A DNA stretch of 64,000 bases, taken from assembly GCF_009799805.1 (NCBI RefSeq), contig NZ_CP047050.1, positions 2,680,001-2,744,000 of the forward strand, read 5' to 3'. This document shows, in pieces, positions 45,297 through 63,257 of the stretch (positions are counted from its first letter, which is position 1; each line of letters starts with the position of its first letter). Both the position numbers and the translations under genes were made by a program. The stretch comes from Myroides phaeus. Lineage in GTDB: Bacteria; Bacteroidota; Bacteroidia; Flavobacteriales; Flavobacteriaceae. The notes below the pieces were generated by a model. The model did no database searches, was not told the DNA's origin, and saw nothing but the letters and a program-made list of their open reading frames with translations.

Positions 45297-46229
45297 TTAG
45301 AAGAAACGAGGAGTATTAATTCTTCCTGTGCGACTAAAAATATCGAAGCGTAAGAAGATCTCATGTGAACCTGAGTTGTAATTTCTCAACGATGTTGTAT
45401 CTGCATCATAAGCATAACCTACAAACAGATTATCATTTACTTGGAAACCTGCCAAAGCACTTACTGAAGCATCCCAACGATAAGCAGCACCTACTGTAAA
45501 CTTATCAACGATTAAGAAGTTCGCCGTTAAGTCAACTTGTAAAGGAGCTCCCTCTACCGCTTTCATTAAGAAAGCTGGTTTGAACTTCAAACTCGGGTTT
45601 AATTCAAAAACATAACCTCCCATTAAGTAAAAGTTTGCTTTTTGACGCATTGTTTCTACATCGTTATCGTCATATCTATCCGAAGTTAAAAAGTTCGGAA
45701 CTGACAATCCAAGATAAGCTCTGTCTGAATACAAATAAAGACCAGCCCCTAAATTTGGCGTAAACTTATTGTTGATATTAGTTTGAGAAACAGGATCCAA
45801 AGGATTGTGAATGTTCAATTTCGTATAATCTACATCCAATAAATTAGCTGTTCCTTTAATACCAAAGGCCAACTTATAATCTCTGTTCAAATCGATTGCA
45901 TACGATAAATCAACAGAAATATTGTTTTCATCCATTGCACCCAATCGGTCATTAGTGAAATTAACACCTAATCCCAATCCGCTTTCTCCTAATGGAGTTG
46001 CAACAGAAACATTAGCTGTTTTAGGTGCACCTTCTAATCCTACCCATTGCGTTCTATACATTCCAAATACACTAAGAACACCTCTCGACCCAGCATAAGC
46101 AGGGTTAATATTGTTCGTATTGTACATATACTGCGTAAACTGAGGATCTTGTTGCGCATACATTTGACTGAAACAGCCTACTGCAAGTAGGCTAATTCCA
46201 ATCTTCTTTATTTTATTATGAATACTCAT
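45297..46229 (-). CDS. PorP/SprF family type IX secretion outer-membrane protein
   Basis: A 310-residue predicted outer-membrane barrel. The signal peptide ends near MYAQ, followed by the family hallmark QDPQFTQYMYNTNNINPAYAGSRG and YRTQWVGLEGAPKT. Alternating amphipathic strands continue to the end (LFVGYAYDADTT, HEIFLRFDIF). In Flavobacterium johnsoniae, SprF is needed for secretion of SprB, which has a type B C-terminal domain. Here it lies 11 bases after a gene with such a domain and is the last gene of the surface-protein operon. It is probably the dedicated exit or anchoring partner. Confidence 0.93.
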   Translation of the reverse strand: MSIHNKIKKIGISLLAVGCFSQMYAQQDPQFTQYMYNTNNINPAYAGSRGVLSVFGMYRTQWVGLEGAPKTANVSVATPLGESGLGLGVNFTNDRLGAMDENNISVDLSYAIDLNRDYKLAFGIKGTANLLDVDYTKLNIHNPLDPVSQTNINNKFTPNLGAGLYLYSDRAYLGLSVPNFLTSDRYDDNDVETMRQKANFYLMGGYVFELNPSLKFKPAFLMKAVEGAPLQVDLTANFLIVDKFTVGAAYRWDASVSALAGFQVNDNLFVGYAYDADTTSLRNYNSGSHEIFLRFDIFSRTGRINTPRFF

Positions 46230-46240
46230 AGATTCTTTTC

Positions 46241-47530
46241 TTAGTTGTTATCTAAATGCAAATATCCAGATTTTTTAATCATTTTAGAGCCATTAGCATC
46301 TTTATGCTCGTAGCTAACAATGTAAAAATATGTACCTGATGGTAACTTTTCGTTTTTGTTTACAGTAACACGACCTTCTGAATATCCACGGAAAACGTTT
46401 CCGTTACTATCATACGCCTTAGTTTCATAAACCTTCACCCCCCAACGGTTGTACACTTCCACTGTATTATTTGGAAACTTATTGATATTGTCAATTAAGA
46501 AATAATCGTTCTTATCATCTCCGTTAGGCGTTACTAAGTTATAAATAACTATATCACCATCCAATAGCAATTCTTTTTTTACAGTAGCAAGGGTAAAGAA
46601 TCCATATCCTTTTACAGATGCAGCAGTAGTAATTTCTTTTTTATCCATATCAACTACTCCTCCTTCATCAACCCAAACTTGCTGTCTTGCATCCCAACGA
46701 ACAATGTGTAATTCCTTTTCCGGATCTTTTAACAACTCAGCTGGTGTCGTACGTTCATCCCAACTCAACGTTAGCATAATACCACTCTCACCATTAATAC
46801 GATCTACAGTCCATAACTCGCGCTCATCTAACAAATTTATCACTCCTGATTTTCCTGAACGAGCTCTAAAGAAATTCTTGTCGTCAAGAGAATATTTTCC
46901 TTCATAAGATTCAGTTACATTCGCTGGTGCACTAATACGTGCATAACGATAAATCCCTTTATCTCCCTTAGGATATTGAAACTCTTCACTACCTATTTTT
47001 TCAACATACCCTTCAGCGTGACTTCTATCTTTAGGGTTAATTGCTTTAGAACCTTGATGAAAAGTAAGCGCCCCTTTTAGAGAGTCCACTTTAATGATCC
47101 CATCTTTAAAATCCACAGAGCCATTTACGTTCATTTCGTTTTTAAGATCAAAGGCAACGTAGTTTTCTGCATTATCTAAAACAACATCGAAAAACGCTGT
47201 TGGTTTTTTTCCAGAAATAACTTGTTTTCCCTTTTCATCTTCGTAACGAGTAAAGATCGCTTTAGACTCTTTCGCTCCATCACTGTGATAATATAAATTA
47301 TCATTGTTAAAGTTGCTATAGTAATAAGCAGTACCATCGTTTTTTACTTTACCATCAGCAGTATTATCAAAGTCATAAACAGTAGACAAAACTCCACCTT
47401 CAGCAATAGAGATAATGCCTTCATTTAGCAACACTTGTTCTTTTTTTGCCTTATCAACTTGTGCAACAACTGCACCTGGTGCAATCATCCCCACAAGAGT
47501 AAGAGATTTGAATATATTTTTTGACTTCAT
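46241..47530 (-). CDS. Secreted protein with gliding-motility/type B C-terminal domain
   Basis: A 429-residue exported protein. The signal peptide is MKSKNIFKSLTLVGMIAPGAVVAQ. The central region is beta-rich without a recognised enzyme motif. The last 95 residues are a CHU_C/type B type IX sorting domain: VTPNGDDKNDYFLIDNI, VEVYNRWGVKVYE, LPSGTYFYIVSYE and KKSGYLHLDNN. It is the only protein of the operon with a recognisable type IX signal. It is 2 bases downstream of the 1425-residue gene and 11 bases upstream of the porP/sprF-like gene, strongly suggesting a cognate cargo-channel pair. Confidence 0.9.
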   Translation of the reverse strand: MKSKNIFKSLTLVGMIAPGAVVAQVDKAKKEQVLLNEGIISIAEGGVLSTVYDFDNTADGKVKNDGTAYYYSNFNNDNLYYHSDGAKESKAIFTRYEDEKGKQVISGKKPTAFFDVVLDNAENYVAFDLKNEMNVNGSVDFKDGIIKVDSLKGALTFHQGSKAINPKDRSHAEGYVEKIGSEEFQYPKGDKGIYRYARISAPANVTESYEGKYSLDDKNFFRARSGKSGVINLLDERELWTVDRINGESGIMLTLSWDERTTPAELLKDPEKELHIVRWDARQQVWVDEGGVVDMDKKEITTAASVKGYGFFTLATVKKELLLDGDIVIYNLVTPNGDDKNDYFLIDNINKFPNNTVEVYNRWGVKVYETKAYDSNGNVFRGYSEGRVTVNKNEKLPSGTYFYIVSYEHKDANGSKMIKKSGYLHLDNN

Positions 47531-47532
47531 TA

Positions 47533-50500
47533 CTATTTTATTTTTTGGTAAATATTAGGATTTGTAATCAATAGACTACGTCCTTTTAAAGGAACAAATG
47601 TATGATAAGGTCTGTCAGCGTCCCAACCTAAATCTCCTTCTTTATAAGGCGTTGGATCAGTTGAATCCACCTCAAATTCCATCTTAGTAGTATTCAGAAT
47701 ACCAAGCCCTTTAACCGCCGCTCTATTGTACACTCCTTTGTTTGCAAAGATATCATTTTTTGTTATTTTATAGTCAACTTTAAACGTCCAAACTTCATTT
47801 CTATTTAAAATTCCGTCGTTATTTTTATCACCATCTAAAGAAACAAAATTTGGCACTGGTTTTTTTGTTTTCTCATCTATCGAAATATTAAAACCAAACA
47901 ACGGATCTATGATTGCAACATCATAAATATCCATATCACCAGCATTCTTCACTTTAAATGTATACGTGATAGTTTCGCCTATATCGGCATATTTATCTTT
48001 GTTATTATCATTAAAAACACCGTCTTTTTCTAACGTACAAGTTTCACAATCTTTTTGTTTTTGACCATAACCAAAACCAATCATTTTAGTTGCTCCTACA
48101 ACAACTTGAGTTACATCAATATTATTAGCTTCATTTTCATCCGAAATCCAGTGAATCTTTTCAAATACCACAGCAGCTTTAGTTATCTTATCAAAAACTT
48201 CTAATTCTTCTAAAGGAGACTCAGTAGTTCGTTTTCCAAATAACTTAACATTTCCCCATTTATCAATAATGACACGTATAGCTGGAGTAGGATTATTAAG
48301 TCTATCACTAAGGTCAATCTTTTTATTTTCATTTATTTTCCAAATTTCATAAACTCCATTACTCCCCCATTTACTGCCAGTTCTATCTTTAAAACGTACA
48401 TTTTGCTCTAACTTTTTACTACTATTCGTTGGCTTTCCTGATTGAAACTCCAATTCTTCTTTATACAGAGGAACTCCATTTATGACCATATTGAAAGAGT
48501 TATCTAATTGATAAATATCTACAACAAATCCACCATTCGTACCTGGTTGAGTAAATTTTTGTGCTAAAATCTTACCATTATTTAGCTTGCCTTCTATATT
48601 ATCCCATCCAAAACCTTTACCTACTACATCTGTATAACATAGATCAGCACAGGTAATTGGCGTTGCTTTAATAGTACATCCATTAGAACTTCTTCTTGTA
48701 AAAGCAATATTATCAAGAATTGTGTGTCCAAAACCTTTACCACTTACTAATGCACGGTCTTGACTACCACGTATTGCCACTTTTACCTTTTTACCTTCAA
48801 TTTTACACGAAGTATCATCTACTCTAAAACTTGCCGTTAAAGGAACCCAACCTAAACTGAATCCTGTTTCTGCAGCACCTTCAGGCAATTCTGCACCAGC
48901 AAACTTAAGTGGAACTGTTGCTAAAATCTGTCCTCCCTCTGTATCAATCACATCAATTAACATGTAATCTTTATCGTGATAAGTAACATAAGAATACAAA
49001 TCCAACGTATAGGTTGTATTAGCCTTTAATGGTTCTTTTACATCAAATTCATAAAATGGCTTTATACTTTGCGTTGCACTGGCAGCCCCACGAATTAAGA
49101 AAGCTGCACCATTCACGGCGCCAGACATATCTCTAACAGCACCAGGTTGATCCCAAGCAGGAGTCCAATCATAAAAGTCTACCGGATGATTAGGATACCA
49201 AGTTTGTGTTTTCCACGGATCTCTATCATCTAACCCCATTCTTACATAACCTGGAGGTAAAACAGCATAGTGTCCATCAGGAATACGCGCTATATCATTT
49301 TGCACTTTGTACCCAGGATATCTTTTATCATTAATACCTGGCGCAAAATTATAAGTACTTGTTGCTCCACCCACAGCTCCATTTCGTATCGTATTTCCTT
49401 GCTGATTCTTTTGAATACTTCCGTCGGAATTTAAACTTACAGAAGCTCTATTTGTCCAGTCTGTTCTTCCCGAATTTACATTCCAATATCCTCTGTCAAA
49501 ATCTTCGTAATACAATACTGCATCAACACAAGGTCCAAGCAACATAAATGAAGCCTCTGTAATATTATTACACCCAATTGATCCACTGTTTGTACCTAAA
49601 GAACTTGTATCATTATTATAACATTCAAAGTGTGGATTGGTCGGTGCTAATTTTGGATCTCCATTCGTAGCATCTGGATCAGTTACATCCGCAGGACGCA
49701 TAATAGTTGCCTCAGCCACTTGATTTCCAATTCCTCCTACTAATTTCCCTTCAAATGTATATGTGATTGTTCCTCTTTTTTTCAAACTCAATTCAGCGTG
49801 ATACATTCTTGTTGCCTTATCATAAGTCAACCGAACATTCTCTCTAACACTATCTTGATAACTAATTGTTGCGCTTGTAATTTCAACACCTCCCGGTACT
49901 TGAAATGTAAAAGGAGCACCTTTTATACCCTTGTCAGAATCAGCAATAACATCACTTGGACCGTAATTACCCGCAATAACCTTATAAACTACTGAGTCAC
50001 CAAAGTTTCCAATTGTAGGATTTGATTTTCCATTAACAGTACTTAAAACTGTGGTGTACAAATCGGCTTCTTTAACTTCTACAAAAGTTTCTTTATTAAC
50101 TTTATTACCTACTCTAAATGTCCAGGTGTCCATCGACTTTTTATCACCAAATGTATTTAGTGCTCCTGTTCCACCAGCACCCCATTTATGCCCATTCACA
50201 TTACTACTAATCCCTTGATTACCTTTTATTGTATGGCTATTTTCTATCGGATCTACTTTATTTCCTTCTAAAATAATTATCTCAGTTTCTTCATAATGCG
50301 CCGGAACCCATCGTCCATTTACATATTTACCATAAACCCAAACTCTTTCAATTGTTGTGGGAATTGATATATCAATATCATCCCAAAATACTTTATCTGA
50401 AATAAATTTGCCATTTAAATTTTTATAATCTAATAATTCAATGGCTATTCCCCCTGTGTTATATTCAATATCAAAAAATGGAAAGTGAACCTCTGCCCCT

Positions 50501-51810
50501 TGTAATTGTACCTTCACCTCAATTGGCACACGTCCCAGCTCCTTAGCAAGTTTCTTACCTGCTTTATTCTTCCCATCCCAAAACACTCTATTAACCCCCT
50601 CTTTTGTATTACCTTCTAAAGTAAAAAAAACATTGTTGTTATTTAGAATTTCAATAGTATATTGTTGTCCTGCTACTGGTGCGTCAAATACAACATATCC
50701 TCCTTTATGCCCAATTACTCCATCTGTCCCTTCTGCTCCAACAATATGAACATTTTGAACCTCTGGCTCTAAAACAGAAGGATTTAACCAAGTTACTCTA
50801 TTCGGATAATGATCTTTTTCAACACCTACACTCACTATTGCTTTAGAAGGCATATCCTCTGCAGGAAATGTATAAAACATTTTATGTGTTATATTCTCAT
50901 TATCATCAGGTGTATTAGGATTATGAATCCTTTTTGAAGCAGTACTCGCTTCTTCATTTAAACTTTTATATTTAGAATTTCCTTTATCATCTTTAAACCC
51001 TATACTATTTGTAAAAAAAGCCCAAACAATACCTGATGTACCATTGTGTTTTACTCGGTATGTAAAACCATCATTTGTACGAACAAAAAATTCTCCATTA
51101 AATTCAATATTCTGATAATTATAACCAGAACTAAAATTCCCATTTGAAAAATTCAAGTTAGTAGCATAAACACGTCCTGGAATAAAAGCTGTACCACCAC
51201 CATTAAGTACTGAAACATCCCATGCAACGATAGTGGCATCATCTCCTTGAGTCCAATTCTCATTAGCATAAAAAACATTACCTTGCCAATTCATTCTTCT
51301 TGAGGTAAATTCTACTCTATAAATACCTTCACCTCCTTTAGGTACTTTATAATAAATAGGGGTATATCCACCTTCTTTATCTTCCTTATACTTTTTGGGT
51401 CCTGCAAGCTCAGCTTTTCTATTTGGAATATTTCCCAAACTATTATCCTTTTTTAAAAAAGTTCCATCTGGCGCATAAAGAGCTATACCTCCTACATCTG
51501 AACCATATCCTTGCGCAGAAGAAGCCATTGTTATCGTTTCACCTTCCTTTGCATATACATAATGGGCTCCCGCATTAGGAAAAGGAATAGCCTCTGGTGC
51601 TGTATATCCCTTTCCTAATAACATAGCCCGATGTCCTTTTCCAACAGGATATAAAATCTCAGAACCATCAGAGTTAAATTCCTTCGCTTTAGCTGGATAT
51701 AAGTCCTTCGATCCATCAGCTAAGGCATTTGAAACAGACAATAATGCGAAACATCCCACCAGTGCCTTTTTCAATACTTTAGCTGTAAAATTATCTATAT
51801 GTTTTCTCAT
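47533..51810 (-). CDS. Large secreted multidomain surface protein (1425 aa)
   Basis: Exported protein of unknown function with a signal peptide ending near SNALA. An N-terminal beta-rich part has KDLYPAKAKE and ILYPVGKGHRAML. A FlgD/Ig-like motif (NRVFWDGKNKAGKKL) lies near residue 410. A middle jelly-roll-like part has LYYEDFDRGYW and ILDNIAFTRRS, as in carbohydrate-binding or adhesive modules. Near the end is a DUF11-like repeat (GETITYTFKVKNAGDMDIYDV). About nine cysteines are in the mature part. It ends LLITNPNIYQKIK, with no type IX sorting domain. It is 47 bases after the 824-residue gene and 2 bases before the type B protein gene. Confidence 0.8.
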   Translation of the reverse strand: MRKHIDNFTAKVLKKALVGCFALLSVSNALADGSKDLYPAKAKEFNSDGSEILYPVGKGHRAMLLGKGYTAPEAIPFPNAGAHYVYAKEGETITMASSAQGYGSDVGGIALYAPDGTFLKKDNSLGNIPNRKAELAGPKKYKEDKEGGYTPIYYKVPKGGEGIYRVEFTSRRMNWQGNVFYANENWTQGDDATIVAWDVSVLNGGGTAFIPGRVYATNLNFSNGNFSSGYNYQNIEFNGEFFVRTNDGFTYRVKHNGTSGIVWAFFTNSIGFKDDKGNSKYKSLNEEASTASKRIHNPNTPDDNENITHKMFYTFPAEDMPSKAIVSVGVEKDHYPNRVTWLNPSVLEPEVQNVHIVGAEGTDGVIGHKGGYVVFDAPVAGQQYTIEILNNNNVFFTLEGNTKEGVNRVFWDGKNKAGKKLAKELGRVPIEVKVQLQGAEVHFPFFDIEYNTGGIAIELLDYKNLNGKFISDKVFWDDIDISIPTTIERVWVYGKYVNGRWVPAHYEETEIIILEGNKVDPIENSHTIKGNQGISSNVNGHKWGAGGTGALNTFGDKKSMDTWTFRVGNKVNKETFVEVKEADLYTTVLSTVNGKSNPTIGNFGDSVVYKVIAGNYGPSDVIADSDKGIKGAPFTFQVPGGVEITSATISYQDSVRENVRLTYDKATRMYHAELSLKKRGTITYTFEGKLVGGIGNQVAEATIMRPADVTDPDATNGDPKLAPTNPHFECYNNDTSSLGTNSGSIGCNNITEASFMLLGPCVDAVLYYEDFDRGYWNVNSGRTDWTNRASVSLNSDGSIQKNQQGNTIRNGAVGGATSTYNFAPGINDKRYPGYKVQNDIARIPDGHYAVLPPGYVRMGLDDRDPWKTQTWYPNHPVDFYDWTPAWDQPGAVRDMSGAVNGAAFLIRGAASATQSIKPFYEFDVKEPLKANTTYTLDLYSYVTYHDKDYMLIDVIDTEGGQILATVPLKFAGAELPEGAAETGFSLGWVPLTASFRVDDTSCKIEGKKVKVAIRGSQDRALVSGKGFGHTILDNIAFTRRSSNGCTIKATPITCADLCYTDVVGKGFGWDNIEGKLNNGKILAQKFTQPGTNGGFVVDIYQLDNSFNMVINGVPLYKEELEFQSGKPTNSSKKLEQNVRFKDRTGSKWGSNGVYEIWKINENKKIDLSDRLNNPTPAIRVIIDKWGNVKLFGKRTTESPLEELEVFDKITKAAVVFEKIHWISDENEANNIDVTQVVVGATKMIGFGYGQKQKDCETCTLEKDGVFNDNNKDKYADIGETITYTFKVKNAGDMDIYDVAIIDPLFGFNISIDEKTKKPVPNFVSLDGDKNNDGILNRNEVWTFKVDYKITKNDIFANKGVYNRAAVKGLGILNTTKMEFEVDSTDPTPYKEGDLGWDADRPYHTFVPLKGRSLLITNPNIYQKIK

Positions 51811-51857
51811 ATTTTCTAATATATCTGTACATAAATTTCAATAATAGATAAAACCTA

Positions 51858-54332
51858 CTATTGAACTCCTGTACCTGTATTTGAATCTTTTATTACAAAA
51901 ACGATAGTCATATAAGACCCTTGTGTTGCTTCTCCAATAATATTATAAGTCATAATACCTTCTTTACTAATCTTAATTCCTGAGAAAACACTTGTATCGT
52001 AATAAGTTACATAATAATGCAATTGTTCTTTATTTAAAACAGAGATATCAGCAGGAGCACCCTCACTTCCAATAATACCTCCAGTATAAGGCATTACCCC
52101 TTCATCGGCACCATGTGCTATATTATAATTTGCACTTCCTGTTCCTGGCAAACCTCCTGTAAATTGATTTACATAATCTTGGTATAAGTTTCTTTGAAGT
52201 CCTGATCCTTTTTTTGATGTATCAAAAATCACAGCAGGCATATAAAAGAACTTTGGCATTGCTCCATTTGATGTTTTTAAAACACCATTACTATCAGCAA
52301 CAACCACTTTATCCGTAACAATATTACCAGGTAATTGATTTATTTCATCAATTTTCACGTGTCCATGAACTACTTCTAAAGAGTTAAATTCTGCTACTTT
52401 ACGAGGCGTTTCAGTCACAGTTCCATTTTCCGAACCAAACAAACCAACTGTCAGCTTACCATCAGCGGCTAACTTCATACGTTGAATTTGATTAGCTGTA
52501 AAAGCAAATCCTTGATTAGTACCAGACTCAGAAGTTATATTAAACTGTAAACCTGCATTTTTTCCAGCAGCAGTAATTTGTCCGACTTGATTTGGATCTT
52601 GAAAGAAATCCATTCTATTTGTACTTCCATTACCTCTTGATGCCACCTGAACATTACTTCTATCAGCGCTTGACAAAGTCAAAGCATATTGAGCTCCGTT
52701 TTGACCAAACGTTGCCGTAGACGCCTCTTGATTAGCTACTTTTTGAATAAAATTCAATGTATTACCATTCAAATCTACCGTACGATTGTTTGCCAAAGTA
52801 CCATCAACATTATAGATATTAGTGTCCTTATCAGCAGCAGGTGTTGTCCATTTTACTGTTTTGTTATCACCTTCTCCTTCGATAGTTAATACTTGTCCTT
52901 TTGTAGCTCCGTTTGTATCAATAGCTACATCATAGAAAACTTCTTTACCATCTTTTTCTGGAGTCGCTTTCCCGTCTGAAACAATAACTCCATTACCAGC
53001 TCTAACAACTGTATTAACTTGATCTTTTAAAATCTCTGCCTTATTAATACTTACTTTGTACTCCGTATTATTATTATCAACAGTAGGTGTAACAGTAACA
53101 AGATTATCTGTACCAACAACAGTTGTCGTTTTTTGGACTGCTCGTATAGCTTCCTGAGAAACATTTACAGCGTACGTAGTGTGTTTTCCTCCTTCAGCAG
53201 GTGTTTTAGTAACAGTTGTGTTTGTTCCATTTACAACCTCCACCGTTTTTTGACCAGTCTGAATAGCCGGTTCTAAATCTACAGATGAAGCAACACCATT
53301 TACAGTACTCGTAAGTGCGTTTCCTTTAAGCGCCAACACATTAGTTGTAGCTGTAATTAAAGTAGATTGATTAACCCATTTAGTTGTAGTACCATCAGTA
53401 ATCAATACTTGTCCAGCAGTAGTACCAGGTGTAATTTGAGCATTAGTTACTTGCCCACCTATATTCTGTAAACTTAACTTCTTTTCATCAACATCGATTG
53501 TGAATGCTTTCAATGCAGCTCCTTTTGCTCCCTCACTTAACACAACCTTATCACTTGCCGCAGTTACATCTTGTCCTGTCACAAGAGAAGATGCTAAGTT
53601 TTCATACTTAACCGATCCATCATTCTGAACAACAGCTACCTTACCTGCATCTTCCTTTTCAGCTACTAATTTACCAGCAGTTACATTTTTATCAGCTAAA
53701 TCTTCCGTTTTTACTTCTCCATTTTTTATTTGAGCAGAAGTAATAGATTCGTTTTTAACTCTTAAAGAAGTTTCTACAAGCGTAGCATTCTTACCACCTG
53801 TAACCACTTCAATAGTAGCATTTCCCTCATCTGCTGCAGACAAATTCTTAGCATCACTTATATGCGAAGCCGTAATGGTAGTTGGTGTCCATTTACCATC
53901 TACAAATGTCAAAACTTGATTAGCAACAGGCTTTGATTCACTTACTTGTGAACCCTGAATAGCAACAACCTTTGTTTCTCCTGTTTTCCCTATAGCATCA
54001 CCTGCTAAAGAGATTTCAGTAACATCAGATTGTTTTGCAAAACGCACCCAACGATTAGTATCCCAATAGTAATAACCTGGAGTTACGTCTTCGTGAGTAT
54101 TTTCATTATATACCATCAATGACTGGGCTGGTCCATTAATAGGGTTTAGCCCATTAGTAGTTTCAACTAAATCTACACGTGGAATTAATAAACCTCTTTT
54201 AGGAGATTGAATATCTACTGCTGCAGATTTATGTGGCTTATCCGTTCCGAATCCTTGTTGTGCGTGAGCTTGCTCAGCACTTAAAGAAAGTACTAAAGCA
54301 AGTCCTGCATATCCTATATAAGATTTTTTCAT
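51858..54332 (-). CDS. Large secreted tail-fibre-like repeat protein (824 aa)
   Basis: Exported protein with signal peptide ending AHAQ. The mature N-terminus QGFGTDKPHKSAAVDIQ and RGLLIPRVDL, then PGYYYWDTNRWVRF, is shared with the next two large genes. The body has repeats of the type GxVLxTDxxGxVxW (GKVAVVQNDGSVKYEN, GQVLITDGTTTKWVN) and ITSAQIKNGEVKTEDL. The C-terminal 120 residues are distinct and more globular (MPAVIFDTSKKGSGLQRNLY). No cysteine was noticed in the mature part and no type IX sorting domain. I interpret it as a subunit of a surface fibre, by analogy only. Confidence 0.8.
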   Translation of the reverse strand: MKKSYIGYAGLALVLSLSAEQAHAQQGFGTDKPHKSAAVDIQSPKRGLLIPRVDLVETTNGLNPINGPAQSLMVYNENTHEDVTPGYYYWDTNRWVRFAKQSDVTEISLAGDAIGKTGETKVVAIQGSQVSESKPVANQVLTFVDGKWTPTTITASHISDAKNLSAADEGNATIEVVTGGKNATLVETSLRVKNESITSAQIKNGEVKTEDLADKNVTAGKLVAEKEDAGKVAVVQNDGSVKYENLASSLVTGQDVTAASDKVVLSEGAKGAALKAFTIDVDEKKLSLQNIGGQVTNAQITPGTTAGQVLITDGTTTKWVNQSTLITATTNVLALKGNALTSTVNGVASSVDLEPAIQTGQKTVEVVNGTNTTVTKTPAEGGKHTTYAVNVSQEAIRAVQKTTTVVGTDNLVTVTPTVDNNNTEYKVSINKAEILKDQVNTVVRAGNGVIVSDGKATPEKDGKEVFYDVAIDTNGATKGQVLTIEGEGDNKTVKWTTPAADKDTNIYNVDGTLANNRTVDLNGNTLNFIQKVANQEASTATFGQNGAQYALTLSSADRSNVQVASRGNGSTNRMDFFQDPNQVGQITAAGKNAGLQFNITSESGTNQGFAFTANQIQRMKLAADGKLTVGLFGSENGTVTETPRKVAEFNSLEVVHGHVKIDEINQLPGNIVTDKVVVADSNGVLKTSNGAMPKFFYMPAVIFDTSKKGSGLQRNLYQDYVNQFTGGLPGTGSANYNIAHGADEGVMPYTGGIIGSEGAPADISVLNKEQLHYYVTYYDTSVFSGIKISKEGIMTYNIIGEATQGSYMTIVFVIKDSNTGTGVQ

Positions 54333-54349
54333 TTTGTTGTGTTTTTTAA

Positions 54350-57181
54350 TTAGTTACGCCCTACAATGATCCATTTAGTACCGTTAGATTTAATAATCCA
54401 ACCTTGGAATGGCATTGCTCCGTATGCTAATAAATCTGTTCCTGACTTGATATTCAAATATCCTGTATGTGATTCATTTTCATTAATGATTTTCACACTA
54501 ATTGTTTGTCCTGATGTACCGTCAATAACTGGTAATTGTAAGTTTGTATCTTTTTCTCCTAATGTTACTTCGATTACAATCTCTTCCATAGAAGGATGGT
54601 AATTTGCAACAGTAGAACCATTAATTGTAATCTCTCCTCCATTGTTAATTGTAACTGGTCCTGCTGGAGTTTTGTCGATTACAGCTAATTTCCCGTCTGA
54701 TCCTACAACTACATTTGAATTTTTAAGATCTTTAGGAGACTTTAATCCTTTAATAGACAAAGATCCCTTGCCATCAGTAACATTTAATGTCGTCTCTAAA
54801 TCAATATCACCTCCTAATGTGATGTTATGTTTATCATCCTTAGCTAAACCATTATTTGCTGTAACAGTGTTTCCCAGTTCTCCGGCAGGAACCCATTTCG
54901 TTGTCTTTGTATCAGTACCAGTAGTAACTAACACCATTCCATCTGTTTCACCTGGAGTAATCTCAATACTTGCAGCGTGTAACAATGCATTAGCTCCATC
55001 TTTAACTGTAATACTTGTTGATGTTAATCCTTTACCTTGTGTTTCAGATATATATGCAACATTTACAGTTGCTACTCCATCTACAAAATTAATTGTCGGC
55101 TTCTCTTTTGCCTCTTTCACAACACCAGCAGTACTATTTCCATTTGCATTTGCAATAGAAATAGTATAATCTTTACCACCTGTTTTATTATCAGTACCAG
55201 CATTAACAGCAATTGGCCCCTCTCCTTCAAACTTATCTTTATTATTTAAAGCAGATTGCTCAGTCCAAATAACTTCTCCTTTTTCATTTGTAACTAAAAC
55301 TTTTGAATTACCATCTGATTTCATATCCACAGCTTGAATAGTACCATCTGCAATCTCATCTGATGTAACTGCACCTGTAGCAATATGGTCTGCTGTAATC
55401 TTATCTTTACCTATGTTTAACTTAACATCAGCTAATAATGAATTAGTCGCTGTTGTTTCTTTTGCTTCACCGTTCTCTCCAATTACAATAACTCCATCTG
55501 TAGTTAATGTTTTCTTATCTGTTAAAGCAGCTGGAGTAATTGTGCTATATGAAACCGTTCCGTCTGTATTAACCGTAGCTACATGTCCTGCAGTTGCACC
55601 AGTTGCATCCAATTTATCAACGCCAATAGTTTTACTTTGAATATCTTCATTTTGAATAGTATTATCAGCAATTTCAGTAGTTGTAATACTTCCTTCTTTA
55701 ATACTCAACTTAGTATCAACTAAAACTGATTTAGGCAATTCTGATTTTTTATCATCACCAATAACAATCTTACCATCAGTTGTTAATGCCTTTCCTAATG
55801 TAGCAGAAACATTTTGATAAGTAACTTTACCATCTTTTCCTGCTACTGGAACAGTTCCTTCTGCAGCATAATCAACTTTACCCTCTCCATTAACAGTACC
55901 TGCTGTCATTTTATCAGCTGTAACTGCACCATCACTAATTTTTTCAGTTGTCACTGCACCACCACCTAAATCAGATGTTTTTACTTCTCCATCTTTAATT
56001 TTTTCTGATGTAATTGCATCGTTAGCAATTCCTAAAGTCACATCTTTCAATAAAGAACTTGCAACTGATAAACCTGTTCCTTCTGTATCTCCTGCTGTTA
56101 CTGTAATACCTGACCCTTTTAATGTTTTAGCATTTACACCTTCTTCAAAAATATTTTTATAAACTACAGTACCGTCAACTTGAACCACTGGCACTTTTCC
56201 TTGATCTTCAGTTTTTGCTCCTAATTTCTCAGCTGTAACTGCACCACCAGCTAAATCAGATGTTTTTACTTCTCCATCTTTAATTTTTTCTGATGTGATT
56301 GCATCGTTAGCAATTTCAGTAGTTGTGATACTTCCTTCTTTAATACTCAATTTAGTTTCAACTAAAACTGAATTAGGCAATTCTGATTTTTTATCATCAC
56401 CAATAACAATCTTACCATCAGTAGTTAATGTTTTAGCAACTAAATTACCTTTAGCAATAGACTCTTCAATTAATGATTTAGGAGATGTAATTTTTAAAAT
56501 TCCATCTGCCCCCATCACTACGATCTTTTGCTCTTTCCCATCAAATTTATCAGAAACATCTGTTAATCCAATAATTGCTAAATTCTTTCCATTTCCAGTA
56601 CCAATAGTCGTTAAGTCTTTAGTTAAAGCTCCACCTAATTCAAATTGGCTATTTCCTTCTTTATCATTAATTACAGTTAAACCGTTTGTAGCACTAACAG
56701 CATTAAATACAAACTCTTTTGGATCAATCCAAACCGTTGTACTATTACTACCATCTATCTTAGTTACTAAAACCTTTCCGTCTTTATCACCTCCTTTTAC
56801 ACTAACTTTATAATCAGTTGTATTAGGCTTTGAGCTATCTACATCAACATTTACATTTGTACCTGCTGTTACAGTAACAGTTTTTTCAGTATTAGAAGCT
56901 ACGAAACGCACCCATCTATTTTTTTCCCAGTAATAGAAACCTGGAGCAGTTTGAGTTCCTTTATTATAAACCATCAACGCATCTGCAGGATCAGAAACAG
57001 GAGCAGCCTTGTCTAAATCAGCGATATCAATACGTGGAATCAATAAACCTCGTTTTGAAGAAACGATATCAACAGCTGATGATTTATGTGGAGCATTTGT
57101 TCCAAAACCTTGTTGAGCTGATACGTTTGTAGTTGCAAGAACTGAAAATGCTACTGAAGCAGATAATATTAATTTTTTCAT
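54350..57181 (-). CDS. Large secreted tail-fibre-like repeat protein (943 aa)
   Basis: Exported protein with signal peptide ending VSAQ, then QGFGTNAPHKSSAVDIVS, RGLLIPRIDI and PGFYYWEKNRWVRF as in its neighbours. The body contains two long near-identical segments (KIVIGDDKKSELP to the next SIKEGSITTTEIA) 214 residues apart, and many AITSEKIKDGEVKTSDL units. The C-terminus LAYGAMPFQGWIIKSNG and WIIVGRN matches the end of the 1984-residue protein. No type IX sorting domain. It is 17 bases before the 824-residue gene and 26 bases after the largest one. Confidence 0.8.
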   Translation of the reverse strand: MKKLILSASVAFSVLATTNVSAQQGFGTNAPHKSSAVDIVSSKRGLLIPRIDIADLDKAAPVSDPADALMVYNKGTQTAPGFYYWEKNRWVRFVASNTEKTVTVTAGTNVNVDVDSSKPNTTDYKVSVKGGDKDGKVLVTKIDGSNSTTVWIDPKEFVFNAVSATNGLTVINDKEGNSQFELGGALTKDLTTIGTGNGKNLAIIGLTDVSDKFDGKEQKIVVMGADGILKITSPKSLIEESIAKGNLVAKTLTTDGKIVIGDDKKSELPNSVLVETKLSIKEGSITTTEIANDAITSEKIKDGEVKTSDLAGGAVTAEKLGAKTEDQGKVPVVQVDGTVVYKNIFEEGVNAKTLKGSGITVTAGDTEGTGLSVASSLLKDVTLGIANDAITSEKIKDGEVKTSDLGGGAVTTEKISDGAVTADKMTAGTVNGEGKVDYAAEGTVPVAGKDGKVTYQNVSATLGKALTTDGKIVIGDDKKSELPKSVLVDTKLSIKEGSITTTEIADNTIQNEDIQSKTIGVDKLDATGATAGHVATVNTDGTVSYSTITPAALTDKKTLTTDGVIVIGENGEAKETTATNSLLADVKLNIGKDKITADHIATGAVTSDEIADGTIQAVDMKSDGNSKVLVTNEKGEVIWTEQSALNNKDKFEGEGPIAVNAGTDNKTGGKDYTISIANANGNSTAGVVKEAKEKPTINFVDGVATVNVAYISETQGKGLTSTSITVKDGANALLHAASIEITPGETDGMVLVTTGTDTKTTKWVPAGELGNTVTANNGLAKDDKHNITLGGDIDLETTLNVTDGKGSLSIKGLKSPKDLKNSNVVVGSDGKLAVIDKTPAGPVTINNGGEITINGSTVANYHPSMEEIVIEVTLGEKDTNLQLPVIDGTSGQTISVKIINENESHTGYLNIKSGTDLLAYGAMPFQGWIIKSNGTKWIIVGRN
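55674..56430 (-). repeat. 642-base-spaced internal duplication in the 943-aa gene
   Basis: The sequence encoding SIKEGSITTTEIA and GDDKKSELP occurs at about 55674-55790 and again at 56316-56430, an offset of 642 bases (214 codons) with few changes. A second repeat (AITSEKIKDGEVKTSDL) is at about 55960-56020 and 56250-56310. Confidence 0.75.
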
Positions 57182-57207
57182 GTGTTTTGTTATGTTAAGT
57201 AAGGTGA

Positions 57208-60200
57208 TTATAATTTGTTAACGATTATCCACTGTGATCCGTTAGAAACGAAGTCCCATCCAGAATATGGCAAGGCTGTATAAACCTCTTGTAATCCTTC
57301 TATCGCTCCGAAAACAGTTACATAGTTATCTTCGTTCTTATCTTGTTTTTTAATTGTGTATTTTTTTCCTTTATTCGCTGTGTTAGCTGTTGGTAAAGTA
57401 ATCCTTACATCTCCATTTACTGCATTCCCTAAGATGATTACATCATCAGTCAATACACCGTATTCTCCAGTTACTTCTTTGATTGAGTTTGTTGTCATTA
57501 GATTAACAGACAACTCTCCTTCTTGAGAAATAATAACAGTTGGATTTGTTTTTGCTTCTTTTACTAAACCTAAAACAGATTCGGCACTATTAGCAGCTCC
57601 TTTTGCTGTGGCAACATTTACATTCCAAATTGTGTTGTTAGCATCTTTTGAATCAACTTTACTTTCAACTGTAGTATTTGTACCATCTACTAAAACAACT
57701 GTTTTTTGATTTCCTTGTACTACTGTTTCAAAGTTTTGATAAGTAACGTTTCCATCTTTATCTGCAATACCAACTCTTGGCTTTTCGTTATCAATTTTTC
57801 CAGCTGTTAGCTTATCTGCTGTTACATTTTTATCAGTTATCTTTTCTGTTGTAACTGCATTATCAGCAAGTTTACCAGTACCAATACTTCCATCTTTAAT
57901 TCCTACTGATGCTTTAGCCAATAATTTGTTAGTTCCATCTGTACCACCTACAAACTCTAACTCTTTTGATAGTTCTAAATCTCCTTTAGTTGTACTAACT
58001 GTATTAGCTAATTTATCTATAGCTTCTTGAACATTACTTGCTCCTAACTTAGACTTTTCATCATCAAATCCAGTTGCTGATGCATTTGTATCTATCGATA
58101 TAATTGTTTCTCCTTTTCCATCAACAAAAGTATAAACACCATCCTTTTGTGAAGCAGTAACCTCATTCAACTTCAATGTTGTCGCCTTTCCTGCAGCATC
58201 CGTAAACTTCAACGAGTTAGTTTTATCGTCATATGATAAAGAACCAACGCTTAAAGCAACTCTCTCTATAATATTAGCTTCGTTAGTATAAGTTAATGTA
58301 TTACTTGCATTATCATAAGACAGAATGGTCACTGTCTCGTTAGCTGAAACAATATCTTTCAATGCCTCATTTTTCTCATTACCCCAAGTAACGTTTCCAT
58401 CCTTATCTGTAACTAAAACAGTACCCTTATCTCCAGCTTGAACTTTATCTGTTGTAACTGCATTATTAGCAAGTTTACCTGTTGAAATACCTTGGTCTGC
58501 AATTTGAATTCCTGCATTAGCCAGTAACTTTTCTGTTCCATTACTTTTATCAGTAAACTCAAGACCACCAGCTACAGTTAAATCTCCTTTTGTACTTTCA
58601 ACTGCCTTAATGTTTTTTAACAACTCTTCTAAAGCACCTTGAACATCTGTTGACGTAAAGACTCCTTTATTATCGATTGCTACATTAGAAGCATTCATAT
58701 CTATTGAACCAATTACATCACCATTAGCATTTTTAAACTCATATTGATGTTTTGCCGTATTCAATTCAACTGAAACTTCTTTTGGATCAATATTAACTCC
58801 AGTAGCACCACTAACTGGTTTACCATCTGCTCCTACTTCTTTTTCGTTATAGTAAGTATAAGAACCATTTGTATTTTTAACTAATACTGTAACAGTTTCG
58901 TTAGCTTTCACAGCATCGGTTAAAGTTTCATTTGTTTTTTCAGCCCAAGTAACGTTTCCGCTCTTGTCTGTAACTAAAACAGTACCGTTACCTCCTTTTT
59001 CAAATTTACCAGTACCAATACTTCCATCTTTAATTCCTACTGATGCTTTAGCCAATAATTTGTTAGTTCCATCTGTACCACCTACAAACTCTAACTCTTT
59101 TGATAGTTCTAAATCTCCTTTAGTTGTACTAACTGTATTAGCTAATTTATCTATAGCTTCTTGAACATTATTTGCTCCTAACTTAGAGTTCGTATCATCA
59201 AACCCAGTTGCTGATGCATTTGTATCTATTGATGTAATTTCATCTCCTTTTCCGTTTTTGAAAGTATAAACACCTTTCTCAATTGTAACAGTTGTAGTGT
59301 TTGCGTTAATCTCAACTACAGAACCATCTACCGCTGTATGCGTATAAGTTCCATTGTTATTATTTACTAACTTATCACTCTTGTCTTTTAAGATTTCTAC
59401 AAGTGTTTTGTAAATATCTCCCTCAGCTGTTAGGTTACTAACTACATCTCCAACTACATTAATAACAACATCTTGTCCATTTCCATTAGTAAACGTGTAT
59501 GAACCCTTACCATCTGAAACAACAGAAGATTTATCTACTGTTCCTAATACCGATCCATCTTTTGCTACTAATGTAACCTTACCATCTTGCTTGTCTTGCA
59601 ATTTAACCTCTGCTCCTGACGCTAAGTTTTTAACTAAATTGTCTATAGCTTCTTGAACATTATTTGCTCCTAACTTAGAATTCGTATCATCAAACCCAGT
59701 TGCTGATGCATTGGTATCTATCGATGTAATTTCATCTCCTTTTCCGTTTTTGAAAGTATAAACACCTTTATCTATCGTAACAGTTGTAGTGTTTGCGTCA
59801 ATCTCAACTACAGAACCATCTACCGATGTATGCGTATATGTTCCATTGTTATTATTTACTAACTTATCACTCTTGTCTTTTAAGATTTCTACAAGTGTTT
59901 TGTAAATATCTCCCTCTGCTGTTAGGTTATTAACTACATCTCCAACTACATTAATGACAACATCTTTTCCATTTCCATTAGTAAACGTGTATGAACCCTT
60001 ACCATCTGAAGTAACAGAAGATTTATCTACTGTTCCTAATACTGATCCATCTTTTGCTACTAATGTAACTTTACCATCTTGCTTGTCTTGCAATTTAACC
60101 TCTGCTCCTGACGCTAAGTTTTTAACTAAATTGTCTATAGCTTCTTGAACATTATTTGCTCCTAACTTAGACTTCGTATCATCAAATCCAGTTGCTGATG

Positions 60201-63162
60201 CATTTGTATCTATCGATGTAATTGTTTCTCCTTTTCCATCTACAAAAGTGTAAACACCATCCTTTAGTGAAGCAGTAACCTCATTCAACTTCAATGTTGT
60301 CGCCTTTCCTGCAGCATCCGTAAACTTCAACGAGTTAGTTTTATCGTCATACGATAAAGAACCAACGCTTAAAGCAACTGTCTCTTTAATATTAGCTTCG
60401 TTTGTATAGGTTAATGTATTGCTTGCATTATCATAAGACAGAATAGTTACTGTCTCGTTTGCTGAAACAATCTCTTTCAATACCTCATTTTTCTCATTAC
60501 CCCAAGTAACGTTTCCGTTCTTGTCTGTAACTAAAACAGTACCCTTATCTCCAGCTTGAACTTTATCTGTTGTTACAGCTCCTTTAGCAATCTTAGCCGT
60601 TGTAACAGCATCAGCTGCTAACTTATCTGTTGTAATAGCACCATCCTCTATAGACAACACCATATTCTTTAACACAGAATCAACTAAACTTGCTTTGCCA
60701 TTAATTAAGATACCTGTACCGCTCAATTCTCCTTTCGTACTTTCAACCGCACCTATTTTCTCTAATAACTTCTCAATTGCTCCTTGTACATTAGTACTTC
60801 CCAATTGCGTTTTATTATCATTGAAAATAATTGAACTCGCATTTGTATCAATAACAGCTAATGGCTCTTTAGTCGACTTATCTGTAAATGTATATACACC
60901 ATCTTTCACTGAAATTGTCAATGTATTGGCATCAAAAGTCAATCCTTTCGCATTTGCTTTTAATTCGCCATTCAAATCAAAATCAGCTTCATTGTAATAA
61001 GTGAATGATCCATTATTATGATCAACAATCTTAGTAACCGTTTGGTTCTTTTGAACCATCTCTTTGATTAAATCGCTTTCTGGTTTTGCCCAACTAACGT
61101 TTCCATCTTTATCTGTTACTAAAACTTCTCCTTTATTTCCTTTTTTGATTTGAGTTAATTGTAACTCTCCTCCTATTTTAGCTAAATCAAACTTCCCTTG
61201 GTTCACTGTTAATGTTACATCTTTCAATACAACTCCAGCTCCATCAGATACAGTTAATAACTCATTAGCAGAATCTAATGTTTTTCCATCTACATTAGAA
61301 GCAGCAATGTTTTCATATTTCACTGTTCCGTCTGCTTGTACCACAGGAACTTTTCCTTTTTCAGCAGCAGTAGCTCCTAATTTATCAGCTGTAACAGCTC
61401 CTTTTTGAAGCATCTCAGTAGACAATTTGTCTTTTAAGCTTTGTGTAATCGCTACACCGTTAACAGTAGAAACTAAATCAGAACCAGTTAATACTAATGT
61501 ATTTGTAGTTATTGCCTCTTTTGCAGACCATACTACATTACCTTTTGCATCTACAACTAACACATCACCTGCATTACCTTTATGTAATTGTGACAGATTA
61601 AGCAAACCTCCTACATTCTCAAGGCTTATTGCCTTTTCATTTACTGCTAATTTTGTTTCTTTTAAAACAGCTCCTTTACCATCAGTAACAACAATAATAT
61701 TGTCGCCACTCAAATTCTTGCCATTTAATGCAGTTTCTAAATTCACACTAAGGTTTCCATTAGCATCAACGTCTAATCCGCTACCAGCTTTTACAACCCC
61801 AGCAACATCTTTAGTTGCAGTTGGAACATCTAATGTATAAGTAATCGTATTTCCGTCGATAACTTTAGTTACATTGATATTAGTACCACCGCGAACTACA
61901 GAAACAAATTGGTTATTTTTCACTAATGCATCTACGTCAATCTCGTGCTCTTTATCATCTTCATCACTAAACACCAATTTCTTAGTTGATGCGTTGTACA
62001 CTAATTGTGTCAATGTTTCCTCAACATCTACAAATGTTTTTAACACATTGTACAAGTCTTGGTCAGTTTTAGCTTTGATTACCTCAGTAACATCACCTAC
62101 AACAGTAATATTAGATGTAGCTCCAGCTTCATTAGTATAAACATACTTACCAGCTTTCTCACGTACTAAAGTTGTAATAGTTTCTTTTCCTTTTACTAAT
62201 TGTTCAAGGCTAACATTATGTTTCTTTCCGCTATTATCAACGTATTGAAACTTATCTCCGTCATAGTAAACGTTACCTCCTACATATGTATCTCCTAAAA
62301 CAGTAACCAACTCTTTTAAAACATCACCGTTATTCACGATTTTGTTGAATTGATTAATTACATCAGCAGGCACATTGATTGTAGTTTGTGTATTATTTTC
62401 AGACGTGTATAAATAAGTACCATTCTTGTTATCCACAAGAGTAGTCACTGTCTCGTATTTTTTTACAAGGTCTTTAATCTTAACAGTAGCATTTACATTA
62501 CCAGCTGCATCTTTAAAAGTAATCGTTCCTTTATCCTCATCTGTGATGATACTATTAACAGTTTCAAAAGACTTAACAGCCCCTTTGATATCAACAGTAA
62601 CGATAGCTTTTTTCTCATCAGAATAAGTCAAAGCACCAGTAACTTTATCGTAAGCTAAAACAGTCAATGTTTCATTTGCTTTAACAATATCGCCAAGTTT
62701 GATTTCAACCTTTTTACCACCCTCTGTTATGTGGTATAATTTATCTCCTTCATACACTACATTTCCCGTAGTATTATTCACGATATTCTTAATCAGATTT
62801 TTCACCTTGTCTCCTTCCAGATTCAAGATATTTTCAAATTGATTTACAACAAGCGCAGGAATTTCAGAGTCCGCTGTTAGGCGTTTCCAAACTTGACGTT
62901 TAGCATCCCAATAGTGGTATCCTGGAATAATATCCTCTTGCTTTACAGTTGCGTAAACAAGTAAACTTTCAACATTACCATTTGTGATTGTACTCTTATC
63001 TGCAGTGTTCTTTAATGGCACTTGTGGTATCAATAAACCTCTATTTGTTGAAGCTACAGTAAGCTCAGCAGATTTGTTTGGTGTTGATGTACCAACCCCT
63101 ACTTGCGCATTGATCGCAAGAGATGACATTAGCAAGCCAGCAGAAATTAATCTTTTGTTCAT
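57208..63162 (-). CDS. Giant secreted tail-fibre-like repeat protein (1984 aa)
   Basis: First gene of the operon and the largest. The signal peptide ends AINAQ, followed by VGVGTSTPNKSAELTVAS, RGLLIPQVPL and PGYHYWDAKRQVWKRL. The body is built from three repeat types: about 30 residues of the form ETVTxLxxNxxGTYTYTNE; about 14 residues GxVLVTDKxGNVTW; and GANNVQEAIDxL. The last resembles coiled phage tail-fibre repeats. The C-terminus (ALPYSGWDFVSNG, WIIVNKL) matches the 943-residue protein. No cysteine was noticed and no type IX sorting domain. A fibrous adhesin or filament subunit is the best interpretation; its export route is not shown by its own sequence. Confidence 0.82.
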   Translation of the reverse strand: MNKRLISAGLLMSSLAINAQVGVGTSTPNKSAELTVASTNRGLLIPQVPLKNTADKSTITNGNVESLLVYATVKQEDIIPGYHYWDAKRQVWKRLTADSEIPALVVNQFENILNLEGDKVKNLIKNIVNNTTGNVVYEGDKLYHITEGGKKVEIKLGDIVKANETLTVLAYDKVTGALTYSDEKKAIVTVDIKGAVKSFETVNSIITDEDKGTITFKDAAGNVNATVKIKDLVKKYETVTTLVDNKNGTYLYTSENNTQTTINVPADVINQFNKIVNNGDVLKELVTVLGDTYVGGNVYYDGDKFQYVDNSGKKHNVSLEQLVKGKETITTLVREKAGKYVYTNEAGATSNITVVGDVTEVIKAKTDQDLYNVLKTFVDVEETLTQLVYNASTKKLVFSDEDDKEHEIDVDALVKNNQFVSVVRGGTNINVTKVIDGNTITYTLDVPTATKDVAGVVKAGSGLDVDANGNLSVNLETALNGKNLSGDNIIVVTDGKGAVLKETKLAVNEKAISLENVGGLLNLSQLHKGNAGDVLVVDAKGNVVWSAKEAITTNTLVLTGSDLVSTVNGVAITQSLKDKLSTEMLQKGAVTADKLGATAAEKGKVPVVQADGTVKYENIAASNVDGKTLDSANELLTVSDGAGVVLKDVTLTVNQGKFDLAKIGGELQLTQIKKGNKGEVLVTDKDGNVSWAKPESDLIKEMVQKNQTVTKIVDHNNGSFTYYNEADFDLNGELKANAKGLTFDANTLTISVKDGVYTFTDKSTKEPLAVIDTNASSIIFNDNKTQLGSTNVQGAIEKLLEKIGAVESTKGELSGTGILINGKASLVDSVLKNMVLSIEDGAITTDKLAADAVTTAKIAKGAVTTDKVQAGDKGTVLVTDKNGNVTWGNEKNEVLKEIVSANETVTILSYDNASNTLTYTNEANIKETVALSVGSLSYDDKTNSLKFTDAAGKATTLKLNEVTASLKDGVYTFVDGKGETITSIDTNASATGFDDTKSKLGANNVQEAIDNLVKNLASGAEVKLQDKQDGKVTLVAKDGSVLGTVDKSSVTSDGKGSYTFTNGNGKDVVINVVGDVVNNLTAEGDIYKTLVEILKDKSDKLVNNNNGTYTHTSVDGSVVEIDANTTTVTIDKGVYTFKNGKGDEITSIDTNASATGFDDTNSKLGANNVQEAIDNLVKNLASGAEVKLQDKQDGKVTLVAKDGSVLGTVDKSSVVSDGKGSYTFTNGNGQDVVINVVGDVVSNLTAEGDIYKTLVEILKDKSDKLVNNNNGTYTHTAVDGSVVEINANTTTVTIEKGVYTFKNGKGDEITSIDTNASATGFDDTNSKLGANNVQEAIDKLANTVSTTKGDLELSKELEFVGGTDGTNKLLAKASVGIKDGSIGTGKFEKGGNGTVLVTDKSGNVTWAEKTNETLTDAVKANETVTVLVKNTNGSYTYYNEKEVGADGKPVSGATGVNIDPKEVSVELNTAKHQYEFKNANGDVIGSIDMNASNVAIDNKGVFTSTDVQGALEELLKNIKAVESTKGDLTVAGGLEFTDKSNGTEKLLANAGIQIADQGISTGKLANNAVTTDKVQAGDKGTVLVTDKDGNVTWGNEKNEALKDIVSANETVTILSYDNASNTLTYTNEANIIERVALSVGSLSYDDKTNSLKFTDAAGKATTLKLNEVTASQKDGVYTFVDGKGETIISIDTNASATGFDDEKSKLGASNVQEAIDKLANTVSTTKGDLELSKELEFVGGTDGTNKLLAKASVGIKDGSIGTGKLADNAVTTEKITDKNVTADKLTAGKIDNEKPRVGIADKDGNVTYQNFETVVQGNQKTVVLVDGTNTTVESKVDSKDANNTIWNVNVATAKGAANSAESVLGLVKEAKTNPTVIISQEGELSVNLMTTNSIKEVTGEYGVLTDDVIILGNAVNGDVRITLPTANTANKGKKYTIKKQDKNEDNYVTVFGAIEGLQEVYTALPYSGWDFVSNGSQWIIVNKL
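57820..60560 (-). repeat. 2118-base-spaced long duplication in the 1984-aa gene
   Basis: The stretch encoding NETVTILSYDNASNTLTYT through KLNEVTAS and DGKGETI occurs at about 58060-58420 and again at about 60180-60550. CGTAAACTTC at 58201 recurs at 60319, an offset of 2118 bases (706 codons). A further copy pair, encoding TTKGDLELSKELEFVGG, is at about 57880-58010 and 59020-59140. Confidence 0.75.
59151..60180 (-). repeat. Tandem 492-base repeat in the 1984-aa gene
   Basis: CTATAGCTTC begins at 59151, 59643 and 60135, exactly 492 bases (164 codons) apart. Two full copies lie between, with only scattered mismatches by eye, encoding KLVNNNNGTYTHT, GVYTFKNGKGDEITSIDTN and KLQDKQDGKVTLVAKDGS. 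A third partial copy follows before the sequence changes. Confidence 0.88.
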
Positions 63163-63249: not shown

Positions 63250-63257
63250 CAAAGATA
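63250..63257 (-). promoter_or_regulatory. -7 box (TATCTTTG on the minus strand) of the surface-protein operon
   Basis: CAAAGATA on the plus strand reads TATCTTTG, the same box as the tRNA-Val promoter, 87 bases before the ATG. No TTTG at the -33 position, which would fit a promoter needing an activator. Confidence 0.6.

Follow-up and report, generated by a model that had tools for sequence, protein, structure and literature searches.

A six-gene operon of Myroides phaeus may encode an anchored adhesive surface fiber with a tip docked by a short C-terminal tail

In the present study, a six-gene operon of Myroides phaeus was analyzed within a 64,000-nucleotide stretch of its genome (NCBI RefSeq assembly GCF_009799805.1, contig NZ_CP047050.1, positions 2,680,001 to 2,744,000; hereafter the window). 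The genes encode products of 1984, 943, 824, 1425, 429 and 310 amino acids (aa), and two short parts of these proteins are paired by gene association across genomes: a C-terminal module of about 100-130 residues that ends the 824-aa protein (C-module), and a C-terminal tail of about 11 residues that ends the 1425-aa protein. Herein, we propose that the operon product is a static, multi-subunit, adhesive surface fiber with a tip docked by tail and socket, a model that, taken as a whole, we consider somewhat better than an even guess. The 429-aa protein would leave the cell through the type IX secretion system (T9SS) by means of its type B C-terminal domain (CTD) and stay attached to the 310-aa PorP/SprF barrel, with which it would form the anchor; the stalk would be built from the 1984-, 943- and 824-aa proteins; and the C-module of the 824-aa protein would be the socket that receives the tail of the 1425-aa tip. 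Because the tail would dock in this socket, tips should be exchangeable by the swap of a single gene. The subunits that lack a CTD would probably be exported while bound to the type B protein; this is the weakest step, and the partnership of tail and C-module is more secure than it. A broader reading, namely a docking code throughout the Flavobacteriales in which [TSV]N[PRK]M-type tails on many otherwise unrelated adhesins are read by the adjacent C-module, giving proteins without a CTD surface display by proxy, is tentative, and we would sooner doubt than affirm it.

The association of these genes exceeds chance. At least 533 relatives of the type B gene were obtained in a scan of named genomes, from which the 80 best loci were taken further, and the cassette counts cover 88 type B genes (the window, L001-L003 and L006-L085). 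PorP directly follows the type B gene in 78 of the 88, and PorP and then a PorE-like gene follow in 67. A co-directional gene lies at most 350 bases upstream of 72 type B genes, and a gene with the C-module, or with the N-terminal module common to the three stalk proteins (N-module), is among the upstream genes in 65 of these 72 cassettes, consistent with the expectation of the initial annotation that module genes, type B gene and PorP occur together. The C-module and the tail were found together in 40 of the 72 cassettes, the C-module only in three, the tail only in two and neither in 27 (Fisher p = 3e-14, uncorrected for kinship); the loose tail pattern behind this count also fits 25 of 636 other open reading frames (ORFs) and some lectin-like ends, and the 40 co-occurring cassettes were verified by eye against the listed protein ends. 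The two tail-only cassettes comprise a false tail (L075) and a locus cut by a contig end (L015), and the three C-only cassettes comprise two loci cut by contig ends (L017 and L059) and one in which the tail protein lies further away (L068).

The same pairing was observed from the side of the C-module. A profile scan of the order, made blind to neighboring genes, gave 76 C-module hits in 49 of 395 genomes and 17 of 108 genera. The surroundings of one locus each were fetched in 40 of the 49 genomes, covering all 17 genera and 41 C-module genes; the other 35 hits stood outside this neighbor analysis, and five of these belong to the window genome and were inspected separately. The next same-strand gene after the 41 C-module genes encodes a strict tail in 22 cases, a tail-like end by eye in six and a type B protein in 13, and the strict tail pattern was found in only one of 399 other ORFs, which is the tip of its own cassette. 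By hand count, tail-type neighbors were observed in eight genera, and only type B neighbors (666-675 aa) in nine. A held-out tail profile, trained on 26 sequence windows from L006-L085 (one of them probably false) and applied to L162-L202, placed 26 of 29 non-type-B neighbors above all 461 background ORFs, once two cassette tails among the background ORFs had been excluded from the threshold; the remaining three neighbors (L194, L199 and L201) score in the background range. The two groups had medians of 14.3 and -12.6 bits; the Mann-Whitney p of 2e-19 is optimistic, since close kinship is frequent among the loci and may also link the test set to the training set. In the window genome, a tail protein lies in the same cluster for all five C-module genes. 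A scan of 299 genomes for an ITNPMI DNA pattern gave, by hand count, 19 hits against 21 in the reversed control, too weak to be used as support; the only hit that ends a large ORF is that of L092, in a cassette of C-module, tail, type B, PorP and PorE-like genes, and the hit in L100 overlaps a 134-aa ORF that ends within 21 residues and looks spurious. Separately, the C-module proteins of L186-L193 and L195-L198, several of them longer than 3000 residues, are followed by a type B protein of 666-675 aa and PorP, and a tail protein was not flagged within these stretches. In F. johnsoniae strain CI04 (L069), the locus likewise combines a C-module protein with type B, PorP and PorE-like genes, and a tail protein was not seen.

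The C-module (KFFYMP...NIVFVVK) ends four of the seven stalk proteins of the cassettes in the window genome and also numerous short proteins (about 200 aa). The C-module of a relative (L054) was modeled with a predicted local distance difference test score of about 87-97; Foldseek and VIA-align gave weak matches only among the families listed, by which the fold is probably immunoglobulin-like, and the best match in a PDB sequence search had an E value of 0.03, with nothing convincing. The tail is shared as the end of large exported cassette proteins, e.g. ITNPNIYQKIK in the window, MTNPHIYHKVQ, SNPMLPNKSR and ISNKTLTQKIKK.

The 1425-aa protein has the look of an adhesin-like, variable tip that closes with a short conserved tail, not of a further stalk protein; it is of the exported type and part of the operon, as first annotated, and its assignment to the larger fiber subunits is not retained. 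It has a Pfam match to DUF7507 and a weak one to DUF11. Domains found in other tail proteins include CshA_NR2, CUB and DUF11, with one lectin-like match under its cut-off, and only one of nine tail proteins tested was without any match. When the last 25 residues were removed and the tail proteins clustered, from a list that includes false tails, they fell into several groups among which no similarity could be detected. In Myroides phaeus DSM 23313 (L006), the slot of the 1425-aa protein is occupied by an unrelated 504-aa protein (best E 2.1) with CshA_NR2 and GEVED domains, and the end is still SNPMLPNKSR. Between the window and L006, three housekeeping neighbors are 99.0, 99.6 and 98.4% identical, PorP 98.4%, an AraC-type neighbor 94.7% and the type B protein 90%; two stalk proteins are 66 and 67% identical, and the third, which is cut in L006, 56-88% depending on the stretch. 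Among 83 relatives of the 1425-aa protein from a database search, the tail forms the C-terminus of 65, a type A CTD ends six (four above the TIGR04183 cut-off, one below it and one by eye), a type B CTD at the tail position ends two and the N-module takes the tail position in six; P0187, which fits the tail pattern and is CTD-like by eye, was placed with type A. Four relatives have none of these ends: two are apparently incomplete, one is N-module-like by eye and one is a distant hit. The 710-aa relative L122 has none of the known ends. The six tip relatives at L116-L121 are fused to the N-module, and in five of these loci an N-module protein of 176-204 aa follows.

The stalk proteins carry few familiar features. 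For the 824- and 943-aa proteins, Pfam and NCBIfam gave no match at E values up to 0.1, the 1984-aa protein has a Pfam match to DUF903 with its other matches under their cut-offs, and no T9SS CTD was found in the 824-, 943-, 1984- or 1425-aa proteins with Pfam and NCBIfam. The description of three giants as tail-fiber-like therefore reflects appearance, with no Pfam family behind it for the 824- and 943-aa proteins; what the three do have in common is the single N-module. This GLLIPR module, named in the initial annotation for a co-occurrence search, does join the three proteins, but the strongest link is that of C-module and tail. The N-module was rejected as a cassette marker: 21 copies were found in the window genome, seven of them upstream of a type B gene and 14 elsewhere, and four of the 14 come immediately after one cassette. 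When the short C-module proteins were used as queries, a database search gave 1059 relatives, with PF26696 on all 120 matches listed; this label is also found on fusions of tip and N-module without a C-module, and PF26696 is therefore taken to be the N-module. A PDB sequence search with the N-module gave nothing convincing (best E 0.73). In a second cassette class, N-module proteins with coiled-coil ends were observed and a tail protein was absent by eye.

The type B sorting domain and the PorP/SprF partner named in the initial annotation both passed the family cut-offs, and by sequence the two proteins belong to known families. The 310-aa protein scored 294.1 bits with TIGR03519 (cut-off 90.55) and 296.6 bits with PF11751, and the CTD of the 429-aa protein scored 39.4 bits with TIGR04131 (cut-off 35) and 90 bits with PF13585 (cut-off 27, E 1.1e-25). 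The 429-aa protein can be aligned end to end with 77 relatives at 39-91% identity, and its predicted structure comprises a beta-solenoid at about 33-200, a sandwich at about 208-317 and then the CTD, with domain limits taken by eye from the strands of the model. The role of this pair as an anchor module, already suggested in that annotation, is supported; it has been shown for relatives and, by analogy, would apply here. The tail of the window PorP/SprF ends in PRFF, with neither Cys-X-Cys nor any cysteine in the last 30 residues; among 103 complete PorP proteins, a cysteine in this region was found in only two (CNC in L004 and a single one in L128). A gliding role for the window cassette was set aside because the twin cysteine is absent. 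The PRFF end was rejected as a mark of a PorE partner since an adjacent PorE-like gene is missing for 21 of 92 such PorP proteins, some of which sit at contig ends.

The window genome (3.1 Mb, single contig) contains six PorP/SprF genes. Besides that of the window, four belong to type B-PorP-PorE-like sets (a tandem pair in L001 and one each in L002 and L003), and in the tandem pair stalk and tip genes are directly upstream of one member only. The sixth (L004), beside a longer type B protein, is the sole one of the six with a CNC end. This SprB/SprF-like pair (L004, 9943-13651) has the carrier end ECNCPGVKD, consistent with the twin-cysteine motif of SprF. Five type B paralogues were aligned, the other four being 40-68% identical to that of the window, and the alignment found matches in 186 of 199 genomes of the family, many of which cover nothing but the CTD. 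The window genome also encodes a sixth protein related to the 429-aa protein over its full length (444 aa; L203, 4374-5708), which has no PorP/SprF neighbor.

Several observations weigh against the proposed fiber on a type B-PorP anchor. In the comparison of cassette gene order, a PorE-like gene is absent from the window cassette and from L006, which detracts from the likeness to static anchors. At 23 of the 40 C-module loci, from 4 of the 17 genera, no type B or PorP gene was found within the fetched stretch, and these loci come chiefly from one genus, taken to be Chryseobacterium-like on account of named relatives (Kaistella and Epilithonimonas). In the window genome, the fifth C-module gene (L202) has tail-type neighbors and no adjacent type B or PorP gene, and the stretches of the N-module-fused tips at L116-L121, from three genera, contain neither gene. 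The initial annotation had regarded homologues found mostly apart from the type B and PorP/SprF genes as evidence against its proposal, and this was found in part, both for these C-module loci and for the N-module, with only seven of 21 copies upstream of a type B gene. In view of the C-module loci and fused tips without a local type B-PorP pair, this pair would therefore be either one of several anchors or trans-acting. The same loci, together with L202 and the 14 N-module copies elsewhere, would also fit a self-standing surface system of C-module and tail with its own outer-membrane route, in which the type B-PorP pair would be an anchor or adhesin in its own right and would lie in a common operon with them in certain lineages. 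However, the type B gene is present within the stretch at 17 of the 40 loci and in 13 of the 17 genera (hand count) and is the immediate next gene in 13 of the 41 cases, and all 23 genomes of the anchor-less group carry, away from these loci, at least one PorP over the cut-off and 4-17 matches to the type B CTD, so that we regard the self-standing system as unlikely.

The tail might instead be an unrecognized short sorting signal of the T9SS, with the C-module protein as a dedicated carrier or chaperone and not a structural socket. Type A or B CTDs do occupy the tail position in eight of the 83 tip relatives, and the tail is common to proteins without detectable similarity elsewhere; on the other hand, the C-module protein is often itself giant and stalk-like, and the N-module, which is no known signal, stands at the same position in six relatives, which makes this explanation improbable. 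With none of the four stalk and tip proteins carrying a recognized T9SS CTD, these proteins could also stay in the periplasm and form an envelope scaffold, but the adhesin-type domains of the tail proteins, the CTD-bearing relatives, and the divergence and replacement beside near-identical neighbors argue for exposure at the surface, and we give the scaffold slightly less credit still. Remnant phage tail-fiber genes, to which the repeat-rich, fiber-like sequences might point, can hardly be credited: no phage family is among the Pfam matches (PHROGs not searched), and the same kinds of genes adjoin T9SS genes at dozens of loci. A multi-subunit surface structure, as first annotated, is upheld as the best guess.

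The six minus-strand ORFs were reproduced with the coordinates first annotated (Table 1), and the gaps between them, from the 310-aa gene upstream, are 11, 2, 47, 17 and 26 bases, within the 2-47 bases given there. All six N-termini are signal-peptide-like in a reading by eye, in line with the claim that every product starts with a signal peptide.

Table 1. Features of the six-gene operon in the window (window coordinates).
Feature	Coordinates	Strand	Basis
310-aa PorP/SprF carrier barrel, PRFF end	45297..46229	-	Pfam/NCBIfam
429-aa T9SS type B substrate	46241..47530	-	Pfam/NCBIfam, predicted structure
Type B CTD of 429-aa protein	46244..46549	-	
1425-aa adhesin-like protein, DUF7507 and weak DUF11, proposed tip	47533..51810	-	ORF list, Pfam
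Conserved C-terminal tail ITNPNIYQKIK of 1425-aa protein	47536..47568	-	tail comparison, profile
824-aa exported protein, N-module and C-terminal C-module	51858..54332	-	ORF list, module profiles
C-module KFFYMP...IVFVIK of 824-aa protein, proposed tail socket	51861..52253	-	alignment
N-module of 824-aa protein	54003..54275	-	alignment
943-aa exported stalk protein with N-module	54350..57181	-	ORF list, N-module alignment
N-module of 943-aa protein	56870..57130	-	alignment
1984-aa exported stalk protein, N-module and repeats, C-terminus lectin-like (by-eye label)	57208..63162	-	ORF list, N-module alignment
N-module of 1984-aa protein	62833..63111	-	alignment
Promoter-like element TATCTTTG, fits TAnnTTTG	63250..63257	-	pattern match

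The promoter-like element lies 95 bases ahead of the first gene and fits TAnnTTTG, which we take to be the consensus of the Bacteroidota -7 element; scans for sigma-70-type promoters and terminators gave no excess over shuffles. A 492-base repeat (2.3 copies, 94% matches, window 59138-60258) lies within the 1984-aa gene and may be one origin of differences in stalk length. AraC-type regulators adjoin several cassettes (window 44120-45082; L005 180-1070; L001 16648-18805; L008), a label that is supported by Pfam in the window and was given by eye at the other loci.

Sorting by the T9SS has been described in terms of a CTD that the exported protein carries. The cassette suggests that whole sets of giant surface proteins without a CTD might ride on, or dock to, a small anchor. 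If so, this arrangement would help to explain many unannotated exported giants in the Flavobacteriales and would provide a simple rule for spotting exchangeable adhesin tips, and a docking code, if true, would add a further route to the Bacteroidota cell surface besides the protein's own CTD. The C-module and the tail are two short parts in which this proposal can be tested.

For relatives, it has been shown in print that type B proteins are secreted only with the cognate PorP/SprF shuttle and that they are statically placed. In Flavobacterium johnsoniae, Fjoh_3952-Fjoh_3951-Fjoh_3950 encode a type B substrate, a PorP/SprF-like shuttle and a PorE-like protein; static foci were seen by tracking, the PorE link is the proposal of those authors, and five operons hold PorE-like, type B and shuttle genes (PMC12618676). 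As in that system, the shuttle gene is directly downstream of the type B gene and a PorE-like gene comes next in most relatives of the window, whereas the accessible parts of the report mention no stalk or tip genes without a CTD, and the window cassette is without a PorE-like gene. Likewise, PorE-PorP-PG1035 of Porphyromonas gingivalis combines a type B protein (about 50 kDa) on PorP with PorE linked to the cell wall, but stalk and tip subunits are not described in the available portion of that source (PMC9143113). The gliding machinery of SprB and SprF shares a type B substrate and an SprF-family carrier; however, a twin cysteine in the C-tail of SprF bonds GldK, according to the part of the report consulted (PMC12635249), and the window carrier has no twin cysteine, with a separate pair of the SprB-SprF kind in the same genome (L004). 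SprB/SprF, the comparison drawn in the initial annotation, is thus replaced as the closest one by the static type B-PorP-PorE kind, to which the gene set is nearer. GhpA, the grappling hook of Aureispira (PDB 9flp), is a giant protein with a C-terminal region similar to the CTD found in the 429-aa family (E 4.1e-5), but the match is confined to this region. The Mfa1 type V fimbria of P. gingivalis is likewise multi-subunit, with a T9SS CTD on one subunit, Mfa5; however, its subunits are acylated in the periplasm, as far as the accessible text goes (PMC7835359), and the 824-, 943- and 1984-aa proteins contain no cysteine at all and hence no site for the lipoprotein maturation of type V (FimA/Mfa) subunits, and the CTD is found here on the proposed anchor, not on the tip. 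With regard to the view that no system of such composition has been described, the open-licence literature, in the parts available, yielded nothing on the stalk, the C-module or the tail and only the type B-PorP(-PorE) anchor (PMC12618676, PMC9143113). The anchor pair is already known from these systems, and the novelty of the operon lies in the upstream stalk and tip genes.
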